Source: Thuidium tamariscinum (taxonomy: Eukaryota; Streptophyta; Bryopsida; Hypnales; Thuidiaceae). Taken from it: DNA of 64,000 bases. Shown here in pieces: positions 11,296-28,512 of this stretch. The DNA is taken from NCBI GenBank assembly GCA_947034885.2, contig OX344751.2, positions 46,281,082 to 46,345,081 on the forward strand, written 5' to 3'. Made by a program: the position numbers and the translations under genes. The notes below the pieces were generated by a model, which was not told where the DNA came from, ran no database searches, and saw only the letters and a program-made list of their open reading frames with translations. Each line of letters begins with the position of its first letter. Position 1 is the first letter of the stretch.

Positions 11296-11517
11296 CCCTT
11301 GAAAAACACTGTGGATGTTTGGCATCCGCTGAATGACAAAGAATCTTTCCTTTTAGGACAAAAATGCAACTTTTCATCCTTGGTATTGGGAGTGGAAAGG
11401 AAAGATCTTCTACAATACTTTAACTTCCAATGCATATATTTGGCTTCTTCAAAGTAGGTGATGTCACATGGTATCAAAATGAATAGTTACCATGGCCACC
11501 AATCCGTCCTTCAAGGG
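11296..11517. mobile_element. 222-bp TTAA-flanked MITE
   Basis: Starts CCCTTGAAAAACAC after TTAA (11292-11295) and ends GTCCTTCAAGGG before TTAA (11518-11521). Inverted CCCTTGA/TCAAGGG ends, non-coding. The rightmost 71 bp is duplicated immediately downstream. Confidence 0.65.
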
Positions 11518-11588
11518 TTAAAAAGTAGGTGATGTCACATGGTATCAAAATGCATGGTTTCCACGGCCACCGGTCCATCCTTCAAGGG
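11447..11588. repeat. 71-bp tandem duplication at the MITE's right end
   Basis: Two units, 11447-11517 and 11518-11588, share AAAGTAGGTGATGTCACATG and CCTTCAAGGG with a few differences. The second unit carries a second copy of the element's right terminus and its TTAA. Confidence 0.8.
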
Positions 11589-11592
11589 TTAA

Positions 11593-12215: not shown

Positions 12216-14563
12216 TTAATCCATCGCCATCGTCTCCGACATCTGAGGAAAATTTCGGTATTCCTTGATCTTGACTCCAAAAAGTTTCAACTTCTGAGCA
12301 GCTGGAAAAGATAATAGGAAAGAACCAGAAAGAAATGCTAAATGTTTCCCGAACTGGAATGCTTTTCTCAGCCCTTGCCAGATGATCCAAGCAATTGCCA
12401 CCCAACCTGTGAAGCAGAACTTAATCAGCAACGAAATCCACAATGACCATGAGCTATCTGAAGAACACAAAGAGGCGGTTCCCATGATAGATTCAACGCC
12501 CATGAGCTTGAAATTCAATTCGAAGTGATTTCTACCACAAATGAAAATGAAAACGAAAACGAAAACGAAAATTTTTATTTCGCTTTTCAGTTCGACAGAT
12601 CCTAAGCAGTAGCATGCAACAGAAGGATTCATAAAAGGGGCATCCAATTTCGATAACTGAGTACTGTAATCTGAGAGACCGATGGCTCACCCGAAAGAAT
12701 AATGACTGCCCACACGCTAAAAAACGCAATGGAGCCGATCGTAAGACCTCCAAAGCCCAGTGCTCCCACATACACGACAGTCACCGATGAGAAAAAAAAA
12801 GCCATGATAAAACAGACCGTCGAAAAGGTCACGAAAAAACTCGCAAATGCAGCATTCAAAGTCGAGAAGACGAAAAGGAGTGCAAGCGCTATCACCGACG
12901 TTACAGCTACAAGAGCAGCAGAGCCCACCTGAACAGCAAAAATATGCACGTCCAAGTTCCAGTTCAAAAACAAGAGAGGAATTGGCAGGGAAGTGACTTG
13001 GAAATCTGAGAAAAGAAATCGTACTGCTTAATGGACGTGTTACAAAAACAAACGTAGAAATTCATGTCATCTTAATAGATAACTAGCAACCTTCTTGACA
13101 CCTGTGCACGAAGAAAATTCACAGGACTCCACCACCAATCTCTTGCAGCGTTTATTGCATCGAAACCCTACCTGTTTGGAATACCATCAGCATTGAGCTC
13201 AAAAGCTCCACAAAATGGCACACCAGAAATGGCAGAGAGGGGCGAGGATGAAATTTGTGACGAAGTACTTACTGCCGCGATTAGAAATCCTCTCCCAGGT
13301 CCTCCATGGCGCATCCAATTGACAGGGTCAGAATTTGTGAAGCTCTTGACCATTGAAGGGAACCGGTAACGACGCACTACAGCATGCCATTTGGCCGATA
13401 TGCAGATAGGTTTTCCATCGCTTTCTCTTACACAATCTTGTATAATTTCCCGAACTGCATCCTCCGATACTTTACGAGACTCTCTGGATTGCATTGAACA
13501 AGCTAAAATATTGATCTCTTCCTGCTCAACCATGGTCTCCTGATGGTGCATTCTGACGGCAACGGTGCGCTTGATTTCGTTGCGGATATGAAAACTTCCA
13601 GACTCAATCGATAACTCTGATTAAAAAGTCCAAAACCATGCTGATACGCATGTACTTCCAAGCAGTCAGTGTTTGTTTTCTCATTGACAACTATGCTGCA
13701 ATAGTTCCACACTTGCTAACAAAAAAAAAGAGAACAACCGAGGCTAAGACAGAAGCATATGACACAATACCTGTTTCTTTCAAGGACGATGCTGTGTCGC
13801 TGGCTACTGCACTGACTTCTTCACGTGGGGTATCACAAATGTCGCAAGTCAAACTATCAGGCGGATTATCGAAAGTGCACACCTGGCAACCCCAAAACCC
13901 TTCCTCCACCCCAGGCTCCTCAGTTTGAGCTACGATTGGCAGTTGTATTGGTACGGAGCTTTGAAAATGCCCTAATAAACCCCGGCAAACAATGAAATCA
14001 GGAAACTAATGATGCAAATTCCCGCAATGATGCAAACTAGACAAAGCTTGTTACGCAGAGCTCATGCGTCACCATCAAACATCTTCCAATCCAAAGTGTC
14101 AGAGCATTGCACAATCGCTTCCTGCCTTCATGATTGCAAGTTAGAGGATGCAAGAAGAACAACTTCCAGTAGCTCCAGACGCGCAATCACTGAGTGTGCA
14201 AAAATATCCTGAAATGAATCGCATGGCCGATATCGCATGCAATCAGAAGAAAGCAAAACAAGCTGAACTACTGAAGTCCGGAGAAGTCTTCCCAACCACT
14301 AGTGTCCTGCGATCGGTACAGGAAGGGAGATAAAGCAGCAAGTGAGACCTCCAAACCCCAAGATTTACAATACCTACTTGATCCTACAGAATCCCACAGA
14401 GCCTAACGATGAGCGAGAATCTAGAGATCTCACCTCCTGCTACCGACAAGGACGAAGACGGATTGTTCTCAGCGTATTCCTCATCCTCATCATAGTAGTC
14501 CTCTTCGTCGTAGGCACCATAACCATCGTCATCGAAATCCGACTGCCTCCACTTCCGAGGCAT
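12216..14563 (-). CDS. Candidate chimera: HBS1 RanBP2 zinc-finger exons fused to a hydrophobic membrane protein
   Basis: Five-exon model read from splice sites: 14563-14434, 13971-13771, 13616-13273, 12928-12691, 12406-12216 (1104 nt, 367 aa, TAA stop). Residues 1-110 are identical to HBS1: acidic N-terminus, then a RanBP2-type zinc finger (W70, C72, C75, C86, C89). Exon 2 ends in phase 1 and the acceptor TTTTTAATCAG continues in frame into exon 3. Residues 133-367 (from the ATG at 13551) form a 235-aa protein: a soluble N-terminal third (EQEEINILACSMQSRES, then KWHAVVRRY and a WMRHGGPGRGFLIAA stretch), about 90 hydrophobic residues rich in A/V/F/S, and a short basic tail. Introns 3 and 4 have GTAAGT and GTGAGC donors with CAG acceptors and preserve frame. 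I do not recognise the membrane part. A lipid-droplet or ER hairpin protein is possible. The gene may instead start at 13551 with the HBS1 exons as leader. Confidence 0.65.
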
Positions 14564-15026
14564 TGCTCTTGGCTTCCTCTGTCACTCCAACTCTAACCTA
14601 TCGCTACTATACCTAGAGAGCTCCTAGAACAGGGAAAGAGACATCGTCCGGCCACCAGACGTTCTCGTCTGTTTTGCAGTTTCAATACGATACGGACGCC
14701 ATCACCACTTACAGAACTAATTATTCCAAAACACAATCACTCGTTGGAAGCTGACTCTCCATGGTCGATTTCAATGTCGCAAGCTCATCATGAACTTGGA
14801 AAGCTGACGGAATGCACCGGCGAGCTACCACATCGACAAACAGAAGGAAATTCGGAGGAGATTACACTGCGATAGAGTCAGAAACAAGTGAAATGAACAG
14901 AGAGACAGAGCAGAGGGAACCCTAACCCTAAAATTGTGGATTCGGGTCGGTGGACAAGACAGTTCCGGATACCTCGGCAGCAGCGGAGTTTTACCGGAAC
15001 AGGCAGTTTTGTTTTGTATTCATTTC
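13645..15026 (-). repeat. Left arm of inverted duplication of the HBS1 5' end
   Basis: Mirror copy of 27130-28512. Position p on the left corresponds to 42156 minus p on the right, without indels from 13771 to 15026. The reading frames I compared are identical. Exons 1 and 2, their splice sites, the 5' untranslated region and the promoter boxes are all included. Similarity drops in the last stretch (13645-13681), beyond a 34-bp inverted segment. Confidence 0.95.
14918..14931 (-). promoter_or_regulatory. Telo-box pair in duplicated promoter
   Basis: Reads TTAGGGTTAGGGTT on the minus strand, about 355 bp upstream of the chimera's ATG. It is the mirror of the motif in the HBS1 promoter. Telo-boxes are frequent in plant promoters of translation-related genes. 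Its role here is inferred. Confidence 0.5.
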
Positions 15027-15029
15027 TTA

Positions 15030-15518
15030 GAGCATCACCTCCCGCCTTGCAAAATGCAGTGGATTTTTGGATTTTTGGCTTGCAAAATGTAGTGCCATCC
15101 ATTTTGTAAGCTGGGTGGTACGCTGCGCCCCACCCGTAACTTCTTAAGAGGCCAACTGATCAATGCAGATGAGAAAGTCAATAATAATAAATTCAAAAGG
15201 TTCGGACTATGGGGGCTTTGACTTCAAATGAACTGCAGTCATGTCGGGGAAATGCCGCAGCAAGTGCAAACAATTTTGACTTGGTAACTCCGAGCAACTC
15301 CCTACTATCGGACAAAGTAGCAATCAATTTGTCTCATTATGTTATGCAAGGTGCGAGCAGGCCAAGTTTCAGCTAGCAAAACGACCCCCTTTTGCCAACC
15401 AAATGCAATTTTGCAGGCCGGCTACTTAACCGGTCATCCGTTTTGCCAGACGGGTGGGGGCAGTTTTGCCAGCCTTTGTTAACAAGTCATTTGATATGCC
15501 AAGCAGGTGGTGATGCTC
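15030..15518. mobile_element. Tourist/Harbinger-type MITE, 489 bp
   Basis: Starts GAGCATCACC and ends GGTGGTGATGCTC, an inverted terminal repeat. It is flanked by TTA at 15027-15029 and 15519-15521. The TWA triplet target is typical of PIF/Harbinger elements. No coding capacity. It abuts the HBS1-derived arm on the left and the large composite element on the right. Confidence 0.75.
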
Positions 15519-15665
15519 TTAGAGCATCGCCACCAGTTGCACTGTCCCCAAAAGCATTGTCCCAAAAAGTCGTGAGGGTTTTGGAGTGCCGTGAGATGTA
15601 GTTGTGTTGTAACCACCCAATGATCCCCACCACCAACGCATTAAATTTGGACTAACCTTTAAACT

Positions 15666-16389
15666 CTAGACCTATAACTATTGTTTTAGTTCTTGTGGCA
15701 ACTTTTAGTTTGCTACCATTTCGGGATTAGATATGTATGGAAAAAAAAATGTATTCAGTTTTCAGGGATGAAGTTATATCTCTTTCTTACTTCCCAAAAA
15801 ATTGAGATTTTTGAGGAAAATTGATTTTTTTGAGAATTTTTGAAGAAGAACTAAAGAAAAATCATATCAAATACAAAATTATATCAAAAAAATTGAGAAT
15901 TTTAGTATGTGTGAACATTTTAGTGGCAAACATTATGGTGTAAATTTAATTCCTGTGTCATTCTATAATTACAATCCAAAAGACATTGAAAATACATCCA
16001 AAGTTCAAATTGCAATAAAATATTCAAAATTATGTTGTTTTTTTCAAAATTCTAATTGGAGAAGAAACTAGAGTAGATTATCTTCATTTTGTTAGTTGGG
16101 CTCAAACTCCAAAAATATCGTTTTGGGGGAGAAATTTGAAATTTAGAGCAAGGAGCAACAACTTCCCAAAATACATTGAAAATAGCATATTTTGTGATCC
16201 TTTTTTTTGTAATCTCTAATTCAGGTGAAGAGAAACACTCACAAGATTACAAAATGAATTAGGTACTCTTCATAATCCTTTGTGAAAGGTCAAGCAACAA
16301 GAAATGGATGAAAAATTGCTAGCAATCTCCCTGTGCACTATTGCAAATTCGTCCAAATGCCACGAAATGGCGCCGTTGGCGTTCTAGGG
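15666..16389 (+). mobile_element. TTAA-flanked element in left arm, unit A
   Basis: Starts CCTTTAAACTCTAGACC after CTAA (a mutated TTAA) and ends GGCGTTCTAGGG before TTAA (16390-16393). A diverged relative of unit B. The inverted copy is at 19575-20305. Non-coding. Confidence 0.6.
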
Positions 16390-16404
16390 TTAAATTTGGA
16401 TTAA

Positions 16405-17073
16405 CCCATAAACGCTAGACCTATAACCACTGTTTCAAGCCTTGTGGCGACACTTAGTTTGTTGCCATTTTGGAATTAGATATGTATGGAAAAAAAATTG
16501 TATTTAGTTTTCAAGGATGAAGTTACTTCTCTTATGTACTTCCTAAAAAATTGAGATTTTTTGTGGAAAATTGTTTTTTCTAAGAATTTTTGAAGAAGAA
16601 GTGAAGAGAAATCATATCAAATACAAAATTATATAAAAAATCTGAGAATTTTACCATGAGTGTACATTTTAGTGGCAAATATCATGGTGTAAACTTGATT
16701 TCCATATCATTCTATAATTACAATCCAAAAAGCATTGAAAATATATCCAAAGTTCAAATTGCAATAAAGTATTCAAATTTATGATTTTTTTCAAAATTCT
16801 ATTTGCAGAAGAAACTAGAATAGATGACCTTCATTTTGTTAGTTGGGCTTAAATTCAAAAAATATTGTTTTTGTAAAGAAATTTGAGAGTTAGAGCATAT
16901 TTTGTGATCTCGTTTTTTTTCCTAATTTCTTATTCACATGAATTAGGTACTCTTCATAATCCTTTGTGGAAGGTCCAATAGTAAAGAATGGATGAAAAGT
17001 TGCTAGCAATCACCATGGACAGTGTTGCTTAGTCATCTAAGCACCATGAAATGGCATCACTGGCACTCCAGGG
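16405..17073 (+). mobile_element. TTAA-flanked element in left arm, unit B
   Basis: Starts CCCATAAACGCTAGACC after TTAA (16401-16404) and ends GGCACTCCAGGG before TTAA (17074-17077). Only 11 bp of a repeated TTAAATTTGGAYTAA spacer separates it from unit A, and the same spacer precedes A. This suggests A and B arose by tandem duplication. Confidence 0.65.
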
Positions 17074-17439
17074 TTAAACATATATAACTTTTCAATTACC
17101 AACAAGGCACAAAGACACATCAAATGCCACCATGGTGCTCCTATTATCTTACCTTGATGGACGGTAGACGGTGGAAAAGTCAACTTTGATGAAATGTGGG
17201 TAGGGTTTCTTGAGAGTGAATGTTGTTCTTTGAGATAGAATCCTTTAGCTAGGACAATGTGGCTTTTTGTTTGAGTTACAAATTTTAGGGTCAAATTTTT
17301 CGTTCGATAGTATAATAGATCTTTGGAGGCAACAATTATTGCAAAGTTTGCAAGAAGAGCTTAAGGATGAGAAGGATGAAGAGTAAATTTGGGCCATACT
17401 TATCTCTCAATTTAGAGAGGTTTTTGATGAAGAAGACAC

Positions 17440-18787
17440 TATGAAGGCCAGTGGTAGTAGGCTAGGAAAAGCTCTAAATGTTGATAGGAATTTTGAAGGA
17501 AGTCATAAACGCATCTATAAACATTATTTCTCTGAAAATTTTGTATTTAGTACACAAATGTTTTAACACCGATTTTGTATGCAAAGAAAATTGTTTGTGA
17601 GGATTATAGATGTTGTTTGTGCCTATGATCCATACTTTATTCAAAAAAATTGTGCAAATACTTTGGGCTTGTCCTTGTTGCATATGCTTGCATACGAGGC
17701 TGCTACTAATGCCATTGATAGTATGTATAGTCATATTGGGGAGAGCACAATGATAGAATCAATGAAGAGATTTTGTAACTCAATGTGAGCTTGTTTTCGA
17801 TCCATGTACTTGAGAAAGCCCACTTGGTCTAAAATTATCAATCAAGTACGTAATAATGAAGCAAGGAGTTGGTCGTGCATATTTGGTTCTTTAGACTATA
17901 TGCATTGGGAGTGGAAAAATTGTCTTGTAGCTTGGCATGGACAATTTTAAGACAAGGATGGTACAAAGAGTATTATCCGAAAGGTAATTGCTGACCAATC
18001 TTAGTGGATATGGCATGCATTTTTTGGTTTGCCGGGAGGCAATAATGACCCAAATGTCCTAAACAAGTTTACTGTGATTGAAAACATTTTGATGAGAGAG
18101 GGACATGATTTATCCTTCACTACGTGTACTCTAGGTACTATTTGCTTGTAGATGGGATTTATTCCAAGCACTAGAAGAAAACTGTATTAGAACCCTCCAA
18201 ATCACGTTGGGTCGGTGCTGTTGAGTTTCCAGTTTCAAATACAAAATTCTGCGTTGTTCTCGCGTTCCAAATTTTGCATTGTTCCAGCAAACACAAAATT
18301 TTACGTTAGAACACCAAAATTTTGTGTTTGAAACTAGAAACTCAAAAGTACTGACCCAACGTGATTTGGGGGGCTCCAATATGGTTTTCTTCTAGTGAAG
18401 TGGAATTGTTTTGTTTAAACAATTCATGAACCTTAAGAGGAGAAGAAGACCGATTTTGCAATAGTCGAAGAAGCTACTTACAAAGATGTTAAACATTGTT
18501 TTGGTGTTCTACAAGTCTGTTTTCAAATTGTCAAAAATCCATGTCACCAATGGGATATGGATACTATGGGTGATATAATGCTAGCTTGTTGCATTATGCA
18601 CAATATGATTATTGATAACAAGAGAGATGTAGGTCTAGAAATTTTGTTTCACCTAGCTACTATTGCACAAGTGCAAAGACAATAGAATTGGCAATTCATT
18701 TGTTGTATGGTAGAGATTGAGCATATAGAGAGGCATTTTATATTAAGGAATGACTTGATTGACCACTTATGGCAACTTAAAGGTTAG
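17440..18787 (+). pseudogene. PIF/Harbinger transposase (DDE_4, ALP1/HARBI1-like), dead
   Basis: Conserved blocks appear in family order. First comes a linker ending NVDRNFEGSHKRIYKHYF, then YDPYFIQKN, the helix block GESTMIESMKRFC, and YLRKPT. The first catalytic Asp lies in FGSLDYMHWEWKNC, the second in LPGGNNDPNVL, and the Glu in EEATYKDVKHCFGVLQ. The tail is MLACCIMHNMIIDN. At least seven in-frame stops interrupt it, and a 229-bp hairpin MITE (18169-18397) sits between the codons of the conserved IYPKW region. Removing it and one AAG copy restores continuity. Such enzymes cut and paste Harbinger elements at TWA sites. Its position inside the GAGCATC-ended element fits. It is non-functional here. 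Confidence 0.92.
18169..18397. mobile_element. CACTA-type hairpin MITE, 229 bp, inside transposase
   Basis: Termini CACTAGAAGAAAAC and GTTTTCTTCTAGTG, with arms pairing along most of the length. The target duplication is AAG at 18166-18168 and 18398-18400. Three-base duplications and CACTA ends are the CACTA/CMC signature. It interrupts the Harbinger transposase, so it is the younger insertion. Confidence 0.88.
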
Positions 18788-19284
18788 ACTATGTACTAAC
18801 AAATTGTACTTTCAACCTAAGTGTCTTTACTTTTGAAAGAAATAACATTTATAATATTCATGATTGAAATAATTTATACCTACTACCCTTTAAACTAAAT
18901 TCGTCTTCTATGTTTATTTATAAAGTGCTTTTAAAAGCCTTTTGAATATGTCTCTACTATAAAAAAATAATGCTTATAGTATTGTCCTTTAAAACAATAA
19001 ACTACCAATTATATTTTATTTTACAACATCTTAAAAACTTCTAGTACCTATGGTATTGGATGATTTTGTAACCCTATGGCTTTCTTAACAAAAAAGAATG
19101 CTAAGAAAGTTAACAACAAGCCTTCTTCTACTACATATCCTTCAAGTATATATGGGGACGCTTTAGAACCAATTGTTTACAATGCACTTACCATACATTC
19201 TTTAAAGATAGTGAATCCTAGACACAAAATTTTTAAAATAGAAATTAAAACTTAAGAAATTTATATACTTCCAATGTAAAACCT

Positions 19285-19559
19285 TTTGCCATTGAAATGT
19301 ACACTCATGGTAAAATTCTCAGATTTTTTATATAATTTTGTATTTGATATGATTTCTCTTCACTTCTTCTTCAAAAATTCTTAGAAAAAACAATTTTCCA
19401 CAAAAAATCTCAATTTTTTAGGAAGTACATAAGAGAAGTAACTTCATCCTTGAAAACTAAATACAATTTTTTTTCCATACATATCTAATTCCAAAATGGC
19501 AACAAACTAAGTGTCGCCACAAGGCTTGAAACAGTGGTTATAGGTCTAGCATTTATGGG
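19285..19559 (-). mobile_element. Inverted partial copy of unit B (right arm)
   Basis: Reverse complement of about 16405-16670. It ends GGG before TTAA (19560-19563). The inner part of unit B is missing, so the inverted repeat ends at about 19285. Confidence 0.7.
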
Positions 19560-19574
19560 TTAATCCAAATTTAA

Positions 19575-20305
19575 CCCTAGAACGCCAACGGCGCCATTTC
19601 GTGGCATTTGAATGAATTTGCAATAGTGCACAGGGAGATTGCTAGCAATTTTTCATCCATTTCTTGTTGCTTGACCTTTCACAAAGGATTATGAAGAGTA
19701 CCTAATTCATTTTGTAGTCTTGTGAATGTTTCTCTTTATCTGAATTAGAAATTACAAAAAAAAAGGATCACAAAATATGCTATTTTCAATGTATTTTGGG
19801 AAGTTGTTGCTCCTTGCTCTAAATTTCAAATTTCTCCCCCAAAACGATATTTTTGGAGTTTGAGCCCAACTAACAAAATGAAGATAATCTACTCTAGTTT
19901 CTTCTCCAATTAGAATTTTGAAAAAAACAACATAATTTTGAATATTTTATTGCAATTTGAACTTTGGATGTATTGTCAATGTCTTTTGGATTGTAATTAT
20001 AGAATGACACAGGAATTAAATTTACACCATGATGTTTGCCACTAAAATGTTCACACATGCTAAAATTCTCAATTTTTTTGATATAATTTTGTATTTGATA
20101 TGATTTTTCTTTAGTTCTTCAAAAATTCTCAAAAAAATCAATTTTCCTCAAAAATCTCATTTTTTTGGGAAGTACAAAAGAGATATAACTTCATCCTTGA
20201 AAACTGAATACAATTTTTTTTCATACAAATCTAATCCCGAAATGGCAACAAACTAAGAGTTGCCACAAGAACTAAAACAATGGTTATAGGTCTAGAATTT
20301 AAAGG
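19575..20305 (-). mobile_element. Inverted copy of unit A (right arm)
   Basis: Reverse complement of 15666-16389. Starts CCCTAGAACGCCAACGGC after TTAA (19571-19574) and ends AATTTAAAGG before TTAG. Part of the long inverted arm of the composite Harbinger element. Confidence 0.75.
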
Positions 20306-20326
20306 TTAGTCCAAATTTAATGCGTT

Positions 20327-20535
20327 CACTAGAAAAAAAAACTGCATTGAATTCCATAAAAACACGTCAGGTAGTTTTTGTTGAGTTCCCTGTTCAAAAT
20401 GCAGTGGAAACGCAAAAAAACGCAGTTTTCTGCATTTTCCTGCCTTTTTTGCGTTTCCACTGCGTTTTGAACAGGGAACTCAACAAAAACTACCTGACAC
20501 ATTTTCATGGAATTCAACGCAGTTTTCTTCTAGTA
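20327..20535. mobile_element. CACTA-type hairpin MITE, 209 bp
   Basis: Starts CACTAGAAAA and ends TTCTTCTAGTA. The target duplication is GTT at 20324-20326 and 20536-20538. The arms fold over nearly the whole length, around TGAGTTCCCTGTTC and its complement. It sits in the right arm, and the left arm shows the same site nearly empty, confirming insertion. Confidence 0.85.
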
Positions 20536-21134
20536 GTTGGTGGGGATCATTGGGTGGTCACAGCACAACTACATCTCATGGCCAACGTATTGGGAGATTC
20601 GGCGGCTAATAGAAAATCAGCCGAATGAAATTGGTAAATTACCGATTTAATTTTAGTAATTTAGTTAGTATAACCAAATGGAAAATTAAGAGTATAGGAA
20701 ATCAACCGCTTGTAAAAAATAAATGATGGTTTTTATTCGTTTTTCTTGAAAAAAAAGTGGTTTTTAACTCGCCTGTGCAAGCTCTTATTAGTTCTTAGTT
20801 GAATAGCCCGAGGGTATAGCCGGATATAATCGGTTCTCAAATTCAAATTTCGTTTTTTTATTAGTATACAAGATACACTGTATAGAGTTATAACCCTGAC
20901 ATGAGTTAACGCCACCCGGCCACCAACGGATTATCAACTATGTAACCTCTATTAATCCATCTAGCGTCTCTCTGCATTGCCGCCAGCCCATCCGGTAGAC
21001 TATTCAAATATCGAGTTGTCTCTCACTCTCCCCAATCCCCACTACCGTTTCCCGCTTCTCTTGCAATCTAACTTCTCTTCTGATTGGGTTTTCTTGTGAT
21101 TTGGCTTTTCATTGCAATCTGGCCCCACTTGCAA

Positions 21135-21550
21135 TCTCACCTCTCTTGCCTCTTCAACTTGTTGTCCTAGTCATTTTGGCTTTCAATCTCGCTCTCATTT
21201 ACTTCTACACATCTGCTCGCTCCCATTTGCTTACCCTACCTTCTTAATCTCAAGTGTTTTTTGCAGGTGCTCCTTTTGGTGTCGCTTGTCTTTTGGCCGA
21301 TGATGACGAAGTGATTAAGTAGCTCAAAGGGCTAAACTTGCGATCTCAATATCTCACCTCTCTTGCCTCTTCAACTTACTGTTCTTTTGATTTTGGCTTT
21401 CATTCTGGCTCTCGTTACAAGTTTACAAGCTCACACGCACCTACTCACTTCCATTTGCTTACCCTACTTTCACTTGATCTCAAGTGTTTTTTGACAGGTG
21501 CTCACTTCTTGGTGTTGCTCATCTTCTGTTTGGATGACGATTGATGAAGA
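21135..21550 (+). repeat. Tandem duplication of about 220 bp in the hAT leader
   Basis: Two units share CTCACCTCTCTTGCCTCTTC, CCATTTGCTTACCCTAC and CTCAAGTGTTTTTTG followed by an AGGTGCTC block. Both are pyrimidine-rich and lie upstream of the transposase start, so this is probably its leader or promoter region. Confidence 0.75.
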
Positions 21551-22762
21551 AGCGATCAGGTGGTAGCGGAGCGATTGAGTGAGTGGGTGACGACGGAGTG
21601 ATCAAGTGGTGGCAGAGCGATCAAGTGACAACGATCAAGGAACTCAAAGGATTAAACAATAGAAACTAATTTGGAGGTAAGCTTTCATTAGGGTTTGGTT
21701 TGCTGAAATAGTATGTATGAATTGAACTCACACAGTTTTGGTTTCTTTTGAATTACTTAAGATTTGAAATTGTGTGTATTAATAAGCATTGAGATGTGAG
21801 TTTTTTGAATGAGTGAGTTTACAATTGATTTCTTAGTGATCATTGAAAAATTGTGGAGTCATTGACTTTAAAGTAAATTCTTTAGGGTTCAATGCAAATT
21901 TTTGTATTTAGAGCTTGGGAGAGATAACTTCTTTAAAAAATGAGTAGTATTGTTGGATAGTATCTGCAAGAGAGAAATGTAAGCTTTAGTTCATAAACCA
22001 ATAACCACTAGATTGACTTGAGGTCTAAAATACAATTTTTAATAGTCTTTTAAGTTGAAATTTTGCTACTTATGTAGCCACATTTGAAAGAATTATTAAG
22101 ACTTGATTAAAGGTTTTCGCATCCAAATATTTGAGATCATAGGAAGATTAAAGTTTGCATTAGGAACTACTTAATATATCTTTTGTTTGTATGGATTGTT
22201 AAGGTTGATTTTGCTTTGCTTCTTCTGCTGAAATGTTTAGAATGAGTAACATGTATTCAAAACTGAACTGTAACTTATTGTTGTACAATATATTTGAGTT
22301 TTGGAAGTTGCTATGAGTAATTTGTATAGAATTTCACTTATTTTATGCTGATTGTAATGGAGGCTATTATATACAATCTGTTAATCTATATTGGTATCAT
22401 AATTTATTTTATATACAATTTAAATTGTTGTTACTTCCTCCATTGATCTTTTTATACATTTTTCATGTGTAGGTTGTTGGAGCAATTTTAAAAAGGATTA
22501 TAGGCATATTATTGTTCAGACCCATATGGATATTTGATGTTTCACTAATATTTGTTGATTTGATGTTGTTATTTGATGTAATATTTGATATTTGATGTTT
22601 GATGTTTGATATTTGCCTATATTTGGTGTTTGATGTTTGATGTTGCTTTCATCTTGTATTCATTGTCATTGCTATTTTTTTTCTACTTTGTTTGAGGGGT
22701 TCATTTCCTTAAGATCTTAAATTTTTATTATTTGTTTGTAATCATCATTTTAAAACATTAAG
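21551..22762 (+). other. hAT leader/intron-like region with a TTTGATG heptamer tract
   Basis: No coding potential. Between about 22555 and 22645 the heptamer TTTGATG and close variants recur about ten times. The tract precedes the transposase ATG at 22763 by just over 100 bp. Confidence 0.5.
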
Positions 22763-25243
22763 ATGTTTGCTAAAAGGCAAAGAACCATGAGGGATATGCT
22801 ACTAAAAGAAAAACAATCAGATTTAGTTGGGCTAGAGGAATCAGCTTCTCTACAATCAACATCATCTACCCCTAAAGATTTATCATAGGCTGAATAAGCA
22901 AAATTGCTATGGAAAGATGCATGGTATGGTCAGTTTGATTGGATAGAGTTTAATTCAGAGGTAAATAAAGTTTTTTGCAAACTTTGTACAAGTAAAGGTG
23001 GTAAAAGTGTTTATGGTAAGAGTGAGTCTTATAACATCAAAATGTTTGCTTTTCAAGATCATCAAAATTCTAAAAAACACAAAAAAAATAAGTTGGACAA
23101 CTCAACAAGGTGAAAAAACTATGGAAAAACACATTAGAGAAGCTAATAAGTGTTGTGATGAGGCTCTACTTCCATTGTTCAGATCTGCATATTTTCTAGG
23201 GAAGGAGACAATTCCTTTTAATAAGTATCCAGCTATTTGTAAGTTACTAGTTGCAAGTCAAGCTAGTTGTACTCAATCAATGTATCATGATGAGAAATCT
23301 TGTGCAGAAATGATTTTTTGCATTTCTAATTGAGTTATTTGTAAAATCCCCCCCACTTTGGGCATGCCATTTTTGGAAGTTGAAAAGGCAACTATAGTTG
23401 AAGCATCAAACTTTTTTGCAAGATACTTATGTCACACGACTTCAAAAGTGGGGACCAAATTTTTTTAGGCACCATTTTGATGGAAAATAAGTTTCATATC
23501 CACTTTTATTTCGACTTTTTTAACTCAACCGACTTTTTCACAAAACTCATGGGTTTAAATTCCGGTTTAGTGTACTTTACAAATAACTCAAATGTCCTCC
23601 AAGAATCCATTTTGGATAGAATTAGAGATTCAAATTTTTTTGGTTTAATGATAGATGAATCCATTGATGTTAATGTCACAAGCCATGTAGTGGTTTTTGC
23701 TACTTTTGCTGAGGAAGAAATTCCTGTAACTATCTTTTTGGGTTTGCTTGAAATTGCTGGTGGTAAAAAAGATGCAGAGACCATTTATGATTGTTTGTTG
23801 AAGTCCATTCAAGAATGGGGCTTAGATATGCAAAAGTGTGTGGGATTTGGGTCTGATGGAGCAACTACAATGGTAGGGCAAAGATCAGGTGTGGCAAGCA
23901 GACTTAAAAAAGTCAGTCCATTTCTCACATCAGTTCATTGCATTGCTTACAGAACTAACTTGGCAACTTTAGAAGCTGTAAAGTCTCAAGATTGTAAGTC
24001 TTTGTCCACTAAAATTGATGTTTTGGTTAATTCTTTGGCTGCATACTTCAAAAAGTTTGGAAAGAAGAAATGTGCCCTTCATGGAATTCAAAAAGAACTA
24101 AATGATGTATAAAAGACTTTAAAGAGGTATCACAAAATTAGGTGGTTGTCAAGATTTCAAGCTATATCCACATTGTGTGATTTTTTGGAATTTGTTATTG
24201 TATATTTTCGGGATGTACCAAGGGAGAAAGATGATGGGACTGCTCTTCTTCTTTATAACAAATTGAGGAGTTTCAAATACATTTATGTTCTATATTTTTT
24301 AGCTTATTTGCTTCATGGTTTGACTATCTTATCCAAAATCTTCCAATTTAAATTTGTGGATGTAATAAGTATTGAATCACTTATGAGAACACAGATTGAG
24401 TCCATCCGCATGTTATACATTATAGACAACACTAATCTAAATTAGGATACCTTTAATGAGAGTTATGGATATCATGTCATTCCAGACCATGGCCCTCAAG
24501 GTGGATATCTTCAAAGATTGCCTAGTGAGATTAGAGGTGCCAAATTCCATGGCATTGATATGATAAGGGATAGAGCAAGTGCTGATTCAAAAAAATCTTT
24601 TGTCTTTTCAAAAGTCATATGCTGAATCAATTATCAAAGCTTTAGAGGCACATTTTGAAGACAATGATTTGATTTTTGCTTTCAAAATTTTCAATCCTTC
24701 TAACATGCCTTCAAGGAAGGTGGGCTTGGCTTTGTGGGGGGTGACAAATTTAGAGCTTCTTCTAAAGCATTATGGAGTGCAAAGAATGGTTGAAAGTAAG
24801 ATTCTTACATCCCTTGTTAATTCAGATGCTTGTAAGAAGGAGTTTTTCATTTTAAATTGCAAGCAATGGTAGATTGGAATGATAAAACTTTCAAGGACCT
24901 ATAGGCCATGGTAACATAAAATTCTACTTTGCAACAAAAGTATGCTAACATTCTGGTCTTAGCTAAAATTGCTAGATGCCAATGTGTTAGTACAGCTACT
25001 TGTGAAAGGGCCTTCTCAATATAAAATATAATTAAAACAAAGTTTAGAAATTGTTTGAATACAAAACATCTTGAAAGTGTACTAAGGGTGACTATAGAAG
25101 GGCCATATGAGGACTTTGATCACATATTGGTTGCTGCTATTGAGCTATGGCGAAATTTAGCTAAATCAAGGTATTTGTATTCTCATCCTGAAAAATATCT
25201 TAGTGTCCAACCTTGTGTAGAGAGTGAATATGATAATTTGTAA
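22763..25243 (+). pseudogene. hAT transposase (ZNF862/C17orf113-like type), dead
   Basis: Starts MFAKRQRTMRDM. It then has a BED/TTF-type zinc-finger block (FCKLC, then DHQNSKKHKK), the RNase-H-like fold with FFGLMIDESIDV (first catalytic Asp) and GFGSDGATTMVG, the HCIAYRTNLA helix, WLSRFQA, and a C-terminal dimerisation block (CERAFSI, then the NTKHLESVLRV helix). Stops occur in the first 60 codons and repeatedly after 24110. There is at least one frameshift near 23110, and a 260-bp MITE splits the gene at 23331-23590. Removing the MITE and one AAT joins CISN to VLQESIL in frame. The frame is best preserved at 23591-24112. Function lost. Confidence 0.92.
23331..23590. mobile_element. 260-bp MITE with 3-bp target duplication (copy 2)
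   Basis: Same family, length and termini as 10218-10477, in opposite orientation. The duplication AAT lies at 23328-23330 and 23591-23593. Insertion into a conserved coding segment gives an unambiguous empty-site reconstruction, so the element's ends are exact. Confidence 0.9.
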
Positions 25244-25379
25244 TCTTAATAATATGATGTTTATTAATCTTCAAAACATGATAGTCTTTAAACATGATAG
25301 TTTTTAAAACATGATAATCTTTATGATGTAAATGTCTTTTAATATTCTATGTAAGGTTGGCCATTTTTAAGAAATGCAT

Positions 25380-25505
25380 TTTCTAAGAAATGCATTTTTC
25401 TGCGTTTTCCCAGTTTTTCACTGCGTTTTTTGCGTTTGTTTCAACATAACTCACTTGACGCGTTCTGTTGAAACAAACGCAAATTTTCAGGCTTTTCTTC
25501 TAGTA
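25380..25505. mobile_element. Remnant of a CACTA-type hairpin MITE
   Basis: Right end CTTTTCTTCTAGTA matches the termini at 18397 and 20535. A central hairpin pairs GCGTTTGTTTCAACA with TGTTGAAACAAACGC. The left terminus is not recognisable, so it is truncated or diverged. It lies within the hAT element. Confidence 0.6.
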
Positions 25506-26053
25506 GGAATGCCAAAAAAAAGGCTTTATACCGAAGTAAATGACCAAGGTTAGGCAACATCCAAATGACCAAGGAGAACTACTGAATAATATCTTAAAAG
25601 AATGGCAAAAAACTGAACCATCCAAGAAACTACCCGTTCACTGCTCACAACGCTCCAAAATCCTTGCGACTTTTTGGGACAATGCTTTTTGGGACAGTGC
25701 ATCTGGTGGCAATACTCTAAGAGCATCGCCACCAGTCACATGTAGCATTCTCTGTAACGGTACTCCATGTTTGGTGTGCTTTTTTAGCAGTCAACAACTC
25801 CACACCAACATCCCGCCATACTATAAAATTTGGAGTGAATCACACTAGATATACGATTGCACGCCAAAGGAAGGGCTTTGTAGAGGGCAGTTGTACACTT
25901 GACGCTAAACGCTATCTTAGTCAACATATACTATTCCCTCCTGGAATTCCCTCAATGAAAGCCAACATGGAAGCAAGGGACGGTTGTGATATGTGTGCAA
26001 GGAAAGGGAAAAAAATTTACAAGGTGGAGGAGAAGCAACTTTGACTATCTGGA

Positions 26054-26300
26054 GAAAAATAATAAAAGACTTCAAAGTTTTTTCCCATGTATACCCTTTA
26101 AGGATTTGGAGATGCTTTGGAACCAATTGTTCAACAATGCACTCACCCATATACTCTTGAAGAGAGGGAAAAATAATAAAAGACTTCAAAGCTTTTTCCT
26201 ATGTATATCTTTTAAGGATTTTGGGGTGCTTTGGAACCAATTGTTCAACAATGCACTCACCCATATACTCTTGAAGGGAGGGAAAAATAATAAAAGATTT
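26054..26300. repeat. 114-bp tandem repeat, two units plus a partial third
   Basis: Units start at 26054, 26168 and 26282 with GAAAAATAATAAAAGAYTT. Each full unit contains TTTGGAACCAATTGTTC and ends in CATATACTCTTGAAG. Short frames here are repeat artefacts. Confidence 0.9.
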
Positions 26301-26559
26301 TAAATGTAAAAATATAGGATTAAATAAGGTTTCATTCAAATATAAATTTAGATATTCTAAAAATATTAAATTTTTTTGTTTTGAATCATTTGCTATTTAA
26401 AAAATTGTGTTGAATCATTTAAATTGTTAAATGTCATACACATTTAAATTGTTAAGTGCCAAACACAAAATAAAAAATTATTTTGAATCATTTGCTATTA
26501 TAAAAAATTGTTAAGTGTCATTTATCTAAAAATATTAAAAATGTTTGTGTCATATACAT

Positions 26560-26790
26560 TTATAATGTAAAAGATAAAGCTTTTATTTTTTATACATTAG
26601 TGAGTGGTCGTTAAACAAAAGCAATACACTTCACTCTTTGTTGTGGTTTTCTTAAGTTATTGATAATGTAAAAGATAAAGCTTTTATTTTTTATACATTA
26701 GTGATGGTCCCAAAATTTAATTTAATTGAAGAAAGTACACTTCACTCTTCATTGTGTTTCTCCAAAATTATTGATGATGTAAAACATTGA
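26560..26790. repeat. Diverged tandem repeat of about 90-110 bp
   Basis: Two to three units share AATGTAAAAGATAAAGC, TTTTTATACATTAGTGA and a TACACTTCACTCTT block. Related in pattern to the array at 7005-7390. Confidence 0.65.
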
Positions 26791-27129
26791 ATTTCTATTT
26801 TTAATAACAAAAACTCAACTCTACAATTTGTAGCTCCAACAATAAGTCGCACAGTCTTCACCAACATTCATAGTGTCTCTATTGATGGACATTGTTCACA
26901 ATTCAACAAAAAAGTTGACTTCTCCACCACCCATCAAGTGAGCTATAATAGGAGCACCTCAGTGGTATTCTATGTGACACGGCGCCTTAGTGGCAGTGAA
27001 AAAAGTATTATCAATTTAATTTTAGCAACTTGTTGGTGGATCAATATAAGATACATCTAAAGGGACTCCATAACCCTCGCCAACTCGATACAGTGGTCAT
27101 TTGGAGTGCCACTGGTGGCGATGCTCTAC

Positions 27130-28512
27130 GAAATGAATACAAAACAAAACTGCCTGTTCCGGTAAAACTCCGCTGCTGCCGAGGTATCCGGAACTGTCTT
27201 GTCCACCGACCCGAATCCACAATTTTAGGGTTAGGGTTCCCTCTGCTCTGTCTCTCTGTTCATTTCACTTGTTTCTGACTCTATCGCAGTGTAATCTCCT
27301 CCGAATTTCCTTCTGTTTGTCGATGTGGTAGCTCGCCGGTGCATTCCGTCAGCTTTCCAAGTTCATGATGAGCTTGCGACATTGAAATCGACCATGGAGA
27401 GTCAGCTTCCAACGAGTGATTGTGTTTTGGAATAATTAGTTCTGTAAGTGGTGATGGCGTCCGTATCGTATTGAAACTGCAAAACAGACGAGAACGTCTG
27501 GTGGCCGGACGATGTCTCTTTCCCTGTTCTAGGAGCTCTCTAGGTATAGTAGCGATAGGTTAGAGTTGGAGTGACAGAGGAAGCCAAGAGCAATGCCTCG
27601 GAAGTGGAGGCAGTCGGATTTCGATGACGATGGTTATGGTGCCTACGACGAAGAGGACTACTATGATGAGGATGAGGAATACGCTGAGAACAATCCGTCT
27701 TCGTCCTTGTCGGTAGCAGGAGGTGAGATCTCTAGATTCTCGCTCATCGTTAGGCTCTGTGGGATTCTGTAGGATCAAGTAGGTATTGTAAATCTTGGGG
27801 TTTGGAGGTCTCACTTGCTGCTTTATCTCCCTTCCTGTACCGATCGCAGGACACTAGTGGTTGGGAAGACTTCTCCGGACTTCAGTAGTTCAGCTTGTTT
27901 TGCTTTCTTCTGATTGCATGCGATATCGGCCATGCGATTCATTTCAGGATATTTTTGCACACTCAGTGATTGCGCGTCTGGAGCTACTGGAAGTTGTTCT
28001 TCTTGCATCCTCTAACTTGCAATCATGAAGGCAGGAAGCGATTGTGCAATGCTCTGACACTTTGGATTGGAAGATGTTTGATGGTGACGCATGAGCTCTG
28101 CGTAACAAGCTTTGTCTAGTTTGCATCATTGCGGGAATTTGCATCATTAGTTTCCTGATTTCATTGTTTGCCGGGGTTTATTAGGGCATTTTCAAAGCTC
28201 CGTACCAATACAACTGCCAATCGTAGCTCAAACTGAGGAGCCTGGGGTGGAGGAAGGGTTTTGGGGTTGCCAGGTGTGCACTTTCGATAATCCGCCTGAT
28301 AGTTTGACTTGCGACATTTGTGATACCCCACGTGAAGAAGTCAGTGCAGTAGCCAGCGACACAGCATCGTCCTTGAAAGAAACAGGTATTGTGTCATATG
28401 CTTCTGTCTTAGCCTCGGTTGTTCTCTTTTTCATTGACTACTATGCTGCAATAGTTCCACACTTGTAACAAAAAACAAGAGAACATTGACTACTTGGAAG
28501 ACGTGCGTATTG
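27130..28512 (+). repeat. Right arm of inverted duplication (HBS1 5' end)
   Basis: Holds the HBS1 promoter, 5' untranslated region, exon 1, intron 1, exon 2 and the start of intron 2. It mirrors 13645-15026. The 34 bp at 28432-28465 has the same plus-strand orientation in both arms, unlike everything around it. Confidence 0.95.
27225..27238 (+). promoter_or_regulatory. Telo-box pair in HBS1 promoter
   Basis: TTAGGGTTAGGGTT lies about 355 bp upstream of the HBS1 ATG, just before a pyrimidine-rich CTCTGCTCTGTCTCTC stretch that may mark the transcription start. Such boxes are typical of plant translation-apparatus promoters, fitting the gene's role. Confidence 0.5.

Follow-up and report, generated by a model that had tools for sequence, protein, structure and literature searches.

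Chimeric genes that arise through duplication and transposon-associated rearrangement are already well known. In four Oryza species, 310 fusion genes have been reported (PMC9199173), and the moss locus described here is similar to such plant chimeras in that a DNA rearrangement has set the 5' part of one gene before another. It differs from them in that the copied part lies in inverted orientation and stops at a transposon terminus, and in being known from its sequence alone. In maize, alternative transposition of Ac/Ds is described as yielding rearrangements at transposon ends (PMC9910405, PMC3744419), and fold-back at breaks is described as priming inverted duplications (PMC3907307, PMC10622511). 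Structural changes at transposon ends and an inverted duplication are both features of our locus too, but its elements are of another type, and none of them is seen at the 13644 junction, where the copy meets the downstream gene.

On the side of the proteins, plant HBS1/SKI7 of the At5g10630 type is laid out, according to PMC6143672, as an acidic N-terminus followed by one RanBP2 finger. The same acidic N-terminus and RanBP2 finger are found on the duplicated exons studied here; the copy differs from HBS1/SKI7 in having neither the GTPase domain nor the later exons, and could donate only promoter, leader and N-terminus. A RanBP2 finger on a predicted plasma membrane protein is listed for RBL14, named there as a rhomboid-like serine protease (table in PMC7154859). 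RBL14 resembles the putative fusion in this combination of finger and predicted membrane protein, but it has no link to the 235-aa protein encoded at our locus. LDIP, a lipid droplet protein, is described as short and substantially hydrophobic (PMC8462815), and the 235-aa protein, which is short and appears largely hydrophobic by its hydropathy, recalls LDIP and LDAF1. It differs from them in its lack of a sequence match in the databases: Pfam, searched with the whole 235 aa at E up to 10, gave no family, promethin (PF16015) included, searches with the exon pieces were likewise unhelpful, and a PDB search gave one chance-level match only (E 5.7). A kinship with LDIP (PTHR35508) is thus a guess, a lead taken from length and hydropathy only. 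Judging open-access papers by their title or the start of their abstract, we recognised none on a fusion of an HBS1 finger to a membrane protein.

The window, that is, the whole stretch of DNA that was analysed, comprises 64 kb of the Thuidium tamariscinum genome (assembly GCA_947034885.2, 363 Mb in 19 contigs; contig OX344751.2, here C3, positions 46281082-46345081). A repeat search of the window found two inverted-repeat arms, 13720-15042 and 27114-28436, and a base-by-base comparison showed that they differ at five positions, of which three lie at one edge (15027, 15037 and 15040) and two at the other (13723 and 13724). The core enclosed by these positions is identical, in inverted orientation, at 1302 of 1302 bases (Table 1). 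The duplication itself exceeds chance, and a chance repeat as the source of the arms is ruled out by 1302 identical bases. A sequence-only reading of this DNA had spoken of exact copies of HBS1 exons 1-2 with their promoter; this is true of the core, but not of a diverged and partly flipped continuation that reaches to 13644, and the transposon terminus at the opposite end of the copy is a further feature, absent from that reading. In the same genome, a DNA search with positions 12216-14563 as query (5 of 5 candidates scored) returned the window copy itself, the HBS1 arm at 100%, a further piece of 59 bases from the HBS1 side and, on contig C8, four diverged pieces at 66-82%. As to structured RNA, Rfam gave no match at gathering thresholds within the 64-kb window. 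Two tandem 71-bp copies, 90% identical, lie at 11451-11592.

Table 1. Coordinates of the features discussed (positions of the window, unless a contig is named).
Feature	Position	Strand	Basis
Exon 3 of the 235-codon gene, stop codon included	12216..12406	-	
Exon 2 of the 235-codon gene, hydrophobic stretch	12691..12928	-	
Exon 1 of the 235-codon gene, 65 nt of leader included; probable native ATG 13551	13273..13616	-	
Putative intron linking the copy to the 235-codon gene, 154 nt	13617..13770	-	
Diverged tail of the copy; loop of the hairpin reversed compared with HBS1 intron 2	13644..13724	-	alignment, 300 shuffles
Inverted identical copy of the HBS1 5' part	13725..15026	-	repeat search, base-by-base alignment
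Copied HBS1 exon 2: RanBP2 finger; 201 nt, multiple of 3, phase-1 donor	13771..13971	-	
Copied HBS1 exon 1: start codon, acidic segment; 130 nt, phase-1 end	14434..14563	-	
TIR element E1; outer end adjoins the HBS1 copy, TTA at 15027-15029	15030..15518	.	end repeats, genome search
TIR element E2; limits from end repeats only	15522..25717	.	repeat search, Pfam
TIR element E3; outer end adjoins HBS1, TAC at 27127-27129	25721..27126	.	end repeats, genome search
Template arm: HBS1 promoter region, exons 1-2, start of intron 2	27130..28431	+	repeat search, base-by-base alignment
Parent HBS1, 11 coding exons, ORF intact, 716 aa	27593..32778	+	translation, Pfam
Probable relative of the 235-aa protein, three-exon layout, larger introns	within C3:25487001-25494000	-	

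HBS1 is a ribosome-rescue gene, with an N-terminus that belongs to SKI/ribosome rescue. The full gene stands 12 kb from the copy, and its product, which is 730 aa long with the alternative exon-2 acceptor 28185, has the acidic N-terminus, the RanBP2 finger, an EF-Tu-type GTPase (PF00009, E 8.9e-47) and C-terminal domains. The earlier suggestion that HBS1 was the donor is thus borne out by a complete 11-exon gene with finger and GTPase nearby. If HBS1 intron 2 is retained (28386-28468), the frame gives, by eye, a hydrophobic end (GIVSYASVLASVVLFFIDYYAAIVPHL, then stop), possibly by chance, and the version of this end in the copy differs beyond the core. HBS1 sequence is found in an inverted repeat twice in this genome, in the window and on contig C8, where C8:859747-883251 holds decayed HBS1 copies with stops. 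These remnants form one run at about 859.7-863.1 kb, with more pieces in inverted arms at about 871.2-872.2 and 878.7-883.3 kb, and the arms sit within a larger inverted repeat whose pieces are 70-89% identical. The C8 pieces cover neither the intron 2 hairpin described below nor the region upstream of 27280, so neither the ancestral state nor the direction of the event can be oriented from them.

Downstream of the copy, a three-exon gene of 235 codons runs on the minus strand from 13551 to 12216, with no stop or frameshift in its coding exons. Kyte-Doolittle means over 19 residues are at least 1.4 at starts 86 to 166 of its protein (every fifth residue sampled). A genome search with the 235-aa protein returned the protein itself and one weak match, C3:25490239-25490481 (E 0.031), and in the reverse search from this match the window gene was the sole match outside its own locus (E 0.082). 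We consider the match a probable relative. In both genes the hydrophobic stretch has its acceptor at the corresponding point (CAG/GTGGG), a GWxxxAWxxWxxxRK motif in the third exon is common to them, and the exon-2 end of the relative is, by inspection, similar in appearance. Because a probable relative with a like three-exon layout exists elsewhere in the genome, the 235-codon unit looks like a real gene. Counted from its first ATG up to the equivalent boundary, the open first exon of the relative spans about 100 aa, versus 93 aa from the ATG at 13551, and upstream of that ATG a TAA stands inside the acceptor tract in the unspliced frame. On these two grounds, the 22 codons before the ATG, which had been read as fusion coding sequence, look like an ordinary native leader. 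Between the end of the copy and the ATG, about 92 bp of the gene's own 5' flank are left.

Can the copy and this gene make one protein? Much of what had been described is indeed there: a phase-1 donor (CAG/GTATTG), the 154-nt intron, and an acceptor before 13616 that opens 65 nt in frame and stop-free to the ATG at 13551, from where the frame continues into the 235-codon gene. The putative spliced frame has the 367 aa given before when the exon-2 acceptor is 13971, and 353 aa when it is 13929 (exon 13929-13771, 159 nt). The RanBP2 finger is likewise present in the copied exons, scoring E 5.1e-9 for PF00641 in the 353-aa frame, the first exon is acidic, and an EF-Tu-type GTPase is not among the Pfam matches to the fusion frame at E up to 10. 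As the length of exon 2 is divisible by three, skipping of the finger exon (14434 to 13616) keeps the frame and gives 300 aa. If the intron were retained, a frame of 136 aa with a hydrophobic end would result.

The frame match was then set against its chance rate, counting any stop-free in-frame AG that leaves an intron of at least 60 nt and lies at least 30 nt upstream of the ATG. Such an AG arises in 31% of 2000 dinucleotide-shuffled versions of the 219-nt leader, and before an ATG in 26% of 1265 plus-strand and 23% of 1175 minus-strand stretches of the window. The in-frame fit is within chance at this control rate of 23-31% and carries small weight as evidence. Of the in-frame chimeric gene proposed earlier, the duplication, the arrangement and the open frame stand, but the agreement of frames is no more than chance would give. 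For the strength of the acceptor, a matrix was trained on 12 acceptors from HBS1 (with its exon-2 acceptor at 28185) and the 235-codon gene, which is a thin training set. Acceptor 13616 scores 2.38 and is the narrow best of 12 AGs between 13711 and 13552 (next 2.27 and 2.22), a list that starts at 13711; the AGs at 13715 and 13743, which would give introns of 55 and 27 nt, lie outside it. In leave-one-out scoring, nine of the 12 training acceptors outscore 13616, and its score is equalled or exceeded by 11% of the AGs on the strand. With an alternative matrix (exon-2 acceptor at 13929/28227, one more exon base) 13616 falls to -0.3, a score that six pre-ATG AGs surpass and that 28% of AGs overall reach or surpass. 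We thus regard the acceptor as moderate, and a fusion protein from the copy and the 235-codon gene as possible.

One alternative is that no fusion is made at all: the 235-codon gene would use a start site of its own in the remaining 5' flank, or a transcript from the HBS1 copy would be spliced otherwise, and the open frame would be there by chance. The chance rate and the moderate acceptor both agree with this, as does the TAA in the acceptor tract, which an untranslated leader would tolerate, and the probable relative needs no such extension; a native promoter would, on the other hand, have to fit into the short flank that is left. We give this explanation close to an even chance. It concerns the product and is compatible with either of the origins considered below, so that our estimates for product and origin overlap.

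The 12-kb spacer between the arms consists of three adjoining TIR elements, E1, E2 and E3, parted by TTA and TAA. Their ends read GAGCATC / GATGCTC, except that one E2 end reads ATACTC. A transposase is present in E2 only (PF04827, E 3.7e-28), which we take to be of the PIF/Harbinger type; it is decayed, and its stops were masked as X. Relative to the 3-bp TTA/TAA target duplication of PIF/Harbinger, the inner junctions have TTA and TAA and the outer flanks have TTA and TAC. Both E1 and E3 are repeated in the genome, E1 with at least 59 matches (40 of 64 candidates scored) and E3 with at least 112 (40 of 90 candidates scored), the window copy included in each case. Among the matches listed, 36 of the 111 for E3 outside the window break off at query 1426-1430, which is the same terminus, and many E1 matches start at query 1-6 or finish at 496-502. 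HBS1 and the copy both end on the same base at these termini, namely CATTTC-TTA-GAGCATC at 15021-15036 and GATGCTC-TAC-GAAATG at 27120-27135; breakpoints placed at random would not be expected to meet the TIR ends with such single-base agreement.

As for the age of the elements, the closest other copy among the matches listed is 85% identical for E1 (383 query bases); for E3 it is 91% over 656 bases, 80% over the longest match and 97% over 132 bp. The E2 transposase region gave 68-81% among the matches listed (40 of 76 candidates; 2.2 of 10.2 kb queried), apart from a nested short repeat. This repeat, at approximately 18169-18397, is present in many copies across the genome, with identities of up to 96%; it finds matches in the reverse orientation too and looks palindromic. 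Inside E2 there is also an inverted repeat, with one arm at 15635-16679 and the other at 19285-20326, whose parts are 94-99% complementary and which encloses the transposase; it may be a nested long-TIR element. The lack of close element copies among these matches suggests that a very recent insertion did not take place, though it does not date the insertion, and the inner repeat of E2 suggests either no great age or conversion between inverted repeats at this place.

At the other end, past the core, the copy extends for about 80 bp in diverged form, from 13724 to about 13644. In HBS1, intron 2 here has a hairpin of stems and a 39-nt loop, and the orientation of the loop is reversed in the copy. 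In the final 28 alignment columns of this tail there are three substitutions and one gap (score 34, versus 25 for the highest of 300 shuffles). The differences between the arms cluster in these roughly 80 bp by the junction, at the hairpin; the resemblance to HBS1 stops at about 13644, where the leader of the 235-codon gene starts. No transposable element was seen at this junction, and a simple model of transposition with reversed ends was dropped for that reason.

We tentatively favour an origin by template switch at a shared TIR, a preference held at somewhat under an even chance and with gene conversion as a close rival. A templated inverted insertion would have set the promoter region, 5' leader, exons 1-2 and the start of intron 2 of HBS1 upstream of the 235-codon gene. 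The three TIR elements, which now lie side by side between the two genes, would have been present beforehand. The outer ends of E1 and E3 have a 9-bp sequence, TAGAGCATC, in common, in inverted orientation, and a repair or replication process that had reached the outer end of E1 may have switched through these 9 bp onto HBS1, with about 1.38 kb copied. Such a switch would make the copy begin precisely where it is seen to begin, at the TIR boundary. Copying would then have failed at the intron 2 hairpin, leaving the flipped loop and the clustered changes that are seen there, and the copy would have been joined to the leader of the 235-codon gene. A fresh insertion of the elements into a fresh palindrome is disfavoured, since no close element copy is among the matches listed and the E2 transposase is decayed; had the insertion into such a palindrome been an old one, divergence of the arms would be expected too. 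An identical core beside elements without close copies thus points either to recent copying across an existing array or to an old repeat kept identical by gene conversion, although this element-based argument about age is weak.

The second of these possibilities would make the copy old: a head-to-head HBS1 palindrome without spacer, later opened at its centre by the TIR elements, with gene conversion between inverted repeats 12 kb apart keeping the arms identical and halting at the flipped hairpin and at the TIRs. With the elements removed, the flanks indeed read as a palindrome, ...GTATTCATTTC|CGAAATGAATAC..., broken only at the centre. The contrast between a diverged tail past the hairpin and a core with 0 differences in 1302 bases is in agreement with this history, differences clustered outside an identical core fit gene conversion equally well, and the flipped loop would be a natural conversion block. 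The 94-99% complementary inverted repeat in the same spacer, and the C8 pseudogene pieces of HBS1, likewise in an old inverted repeat, also speak for it. On the other hand, the insertion must have hit the palindrome centre precisely and the conversion tract must run almost from end to end, and we place this origin appreciably under an even chance.

Returning to the product, the 235-codon gene might be a nascent pseudogene that was severed from its promoter, with the HBS1 copy making only a short truncated product. Its native 5' flank has been replaced or displaced and the intron-retained frame ends early, as noted above, but all three coding exons remain intact and free of stops and frameshifts, and we consider this outcome unlikely. 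That the identical inverted arm was duplicated or homogenised by assembly or polishing, as perfect identity over 1302 bp might hint, is very improbable given a window without N runs, a diverged tail with a flipped loop and differing flanks on the two sides.

The copied HBS1 promoter would be the likely driver of the 235-codon gene, provided that the gene is expressed, because so little of its own 5' flank remains. On an HBS1-promoted transcript, translation would begin at the HBS1 ATG, and its product could be the fusion, a fusion that lacks the finger, or a short truncated protein. Splicing from the HBS1 donor to acceptor 13616 could place the acidic segment and the RanBP2 finger on the hydrophobic protein, with the finger exon optional. 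The full scenario, in which one TIR-guided template switch put a housekeeping promoter, start codon and finger exons before a membrane-protein gene and so yielded an expressed protein with the HBS1 N-terminus on a membrane or lipid-droplet anchor, seems doubtful to us as a whole. If the fusion is expressed, it would be a young-looking chimeric gene in which both junctions, the donor and the flanking elements can still be read, and the birth of a gene would become datable and testable in this moss. Even without a fusion protein, promoter capture may be seen here in a clean form, and the precise TIR boundary together with the altered hairpin tail would offer a testable account of how transposon ends might seed templated insertions.
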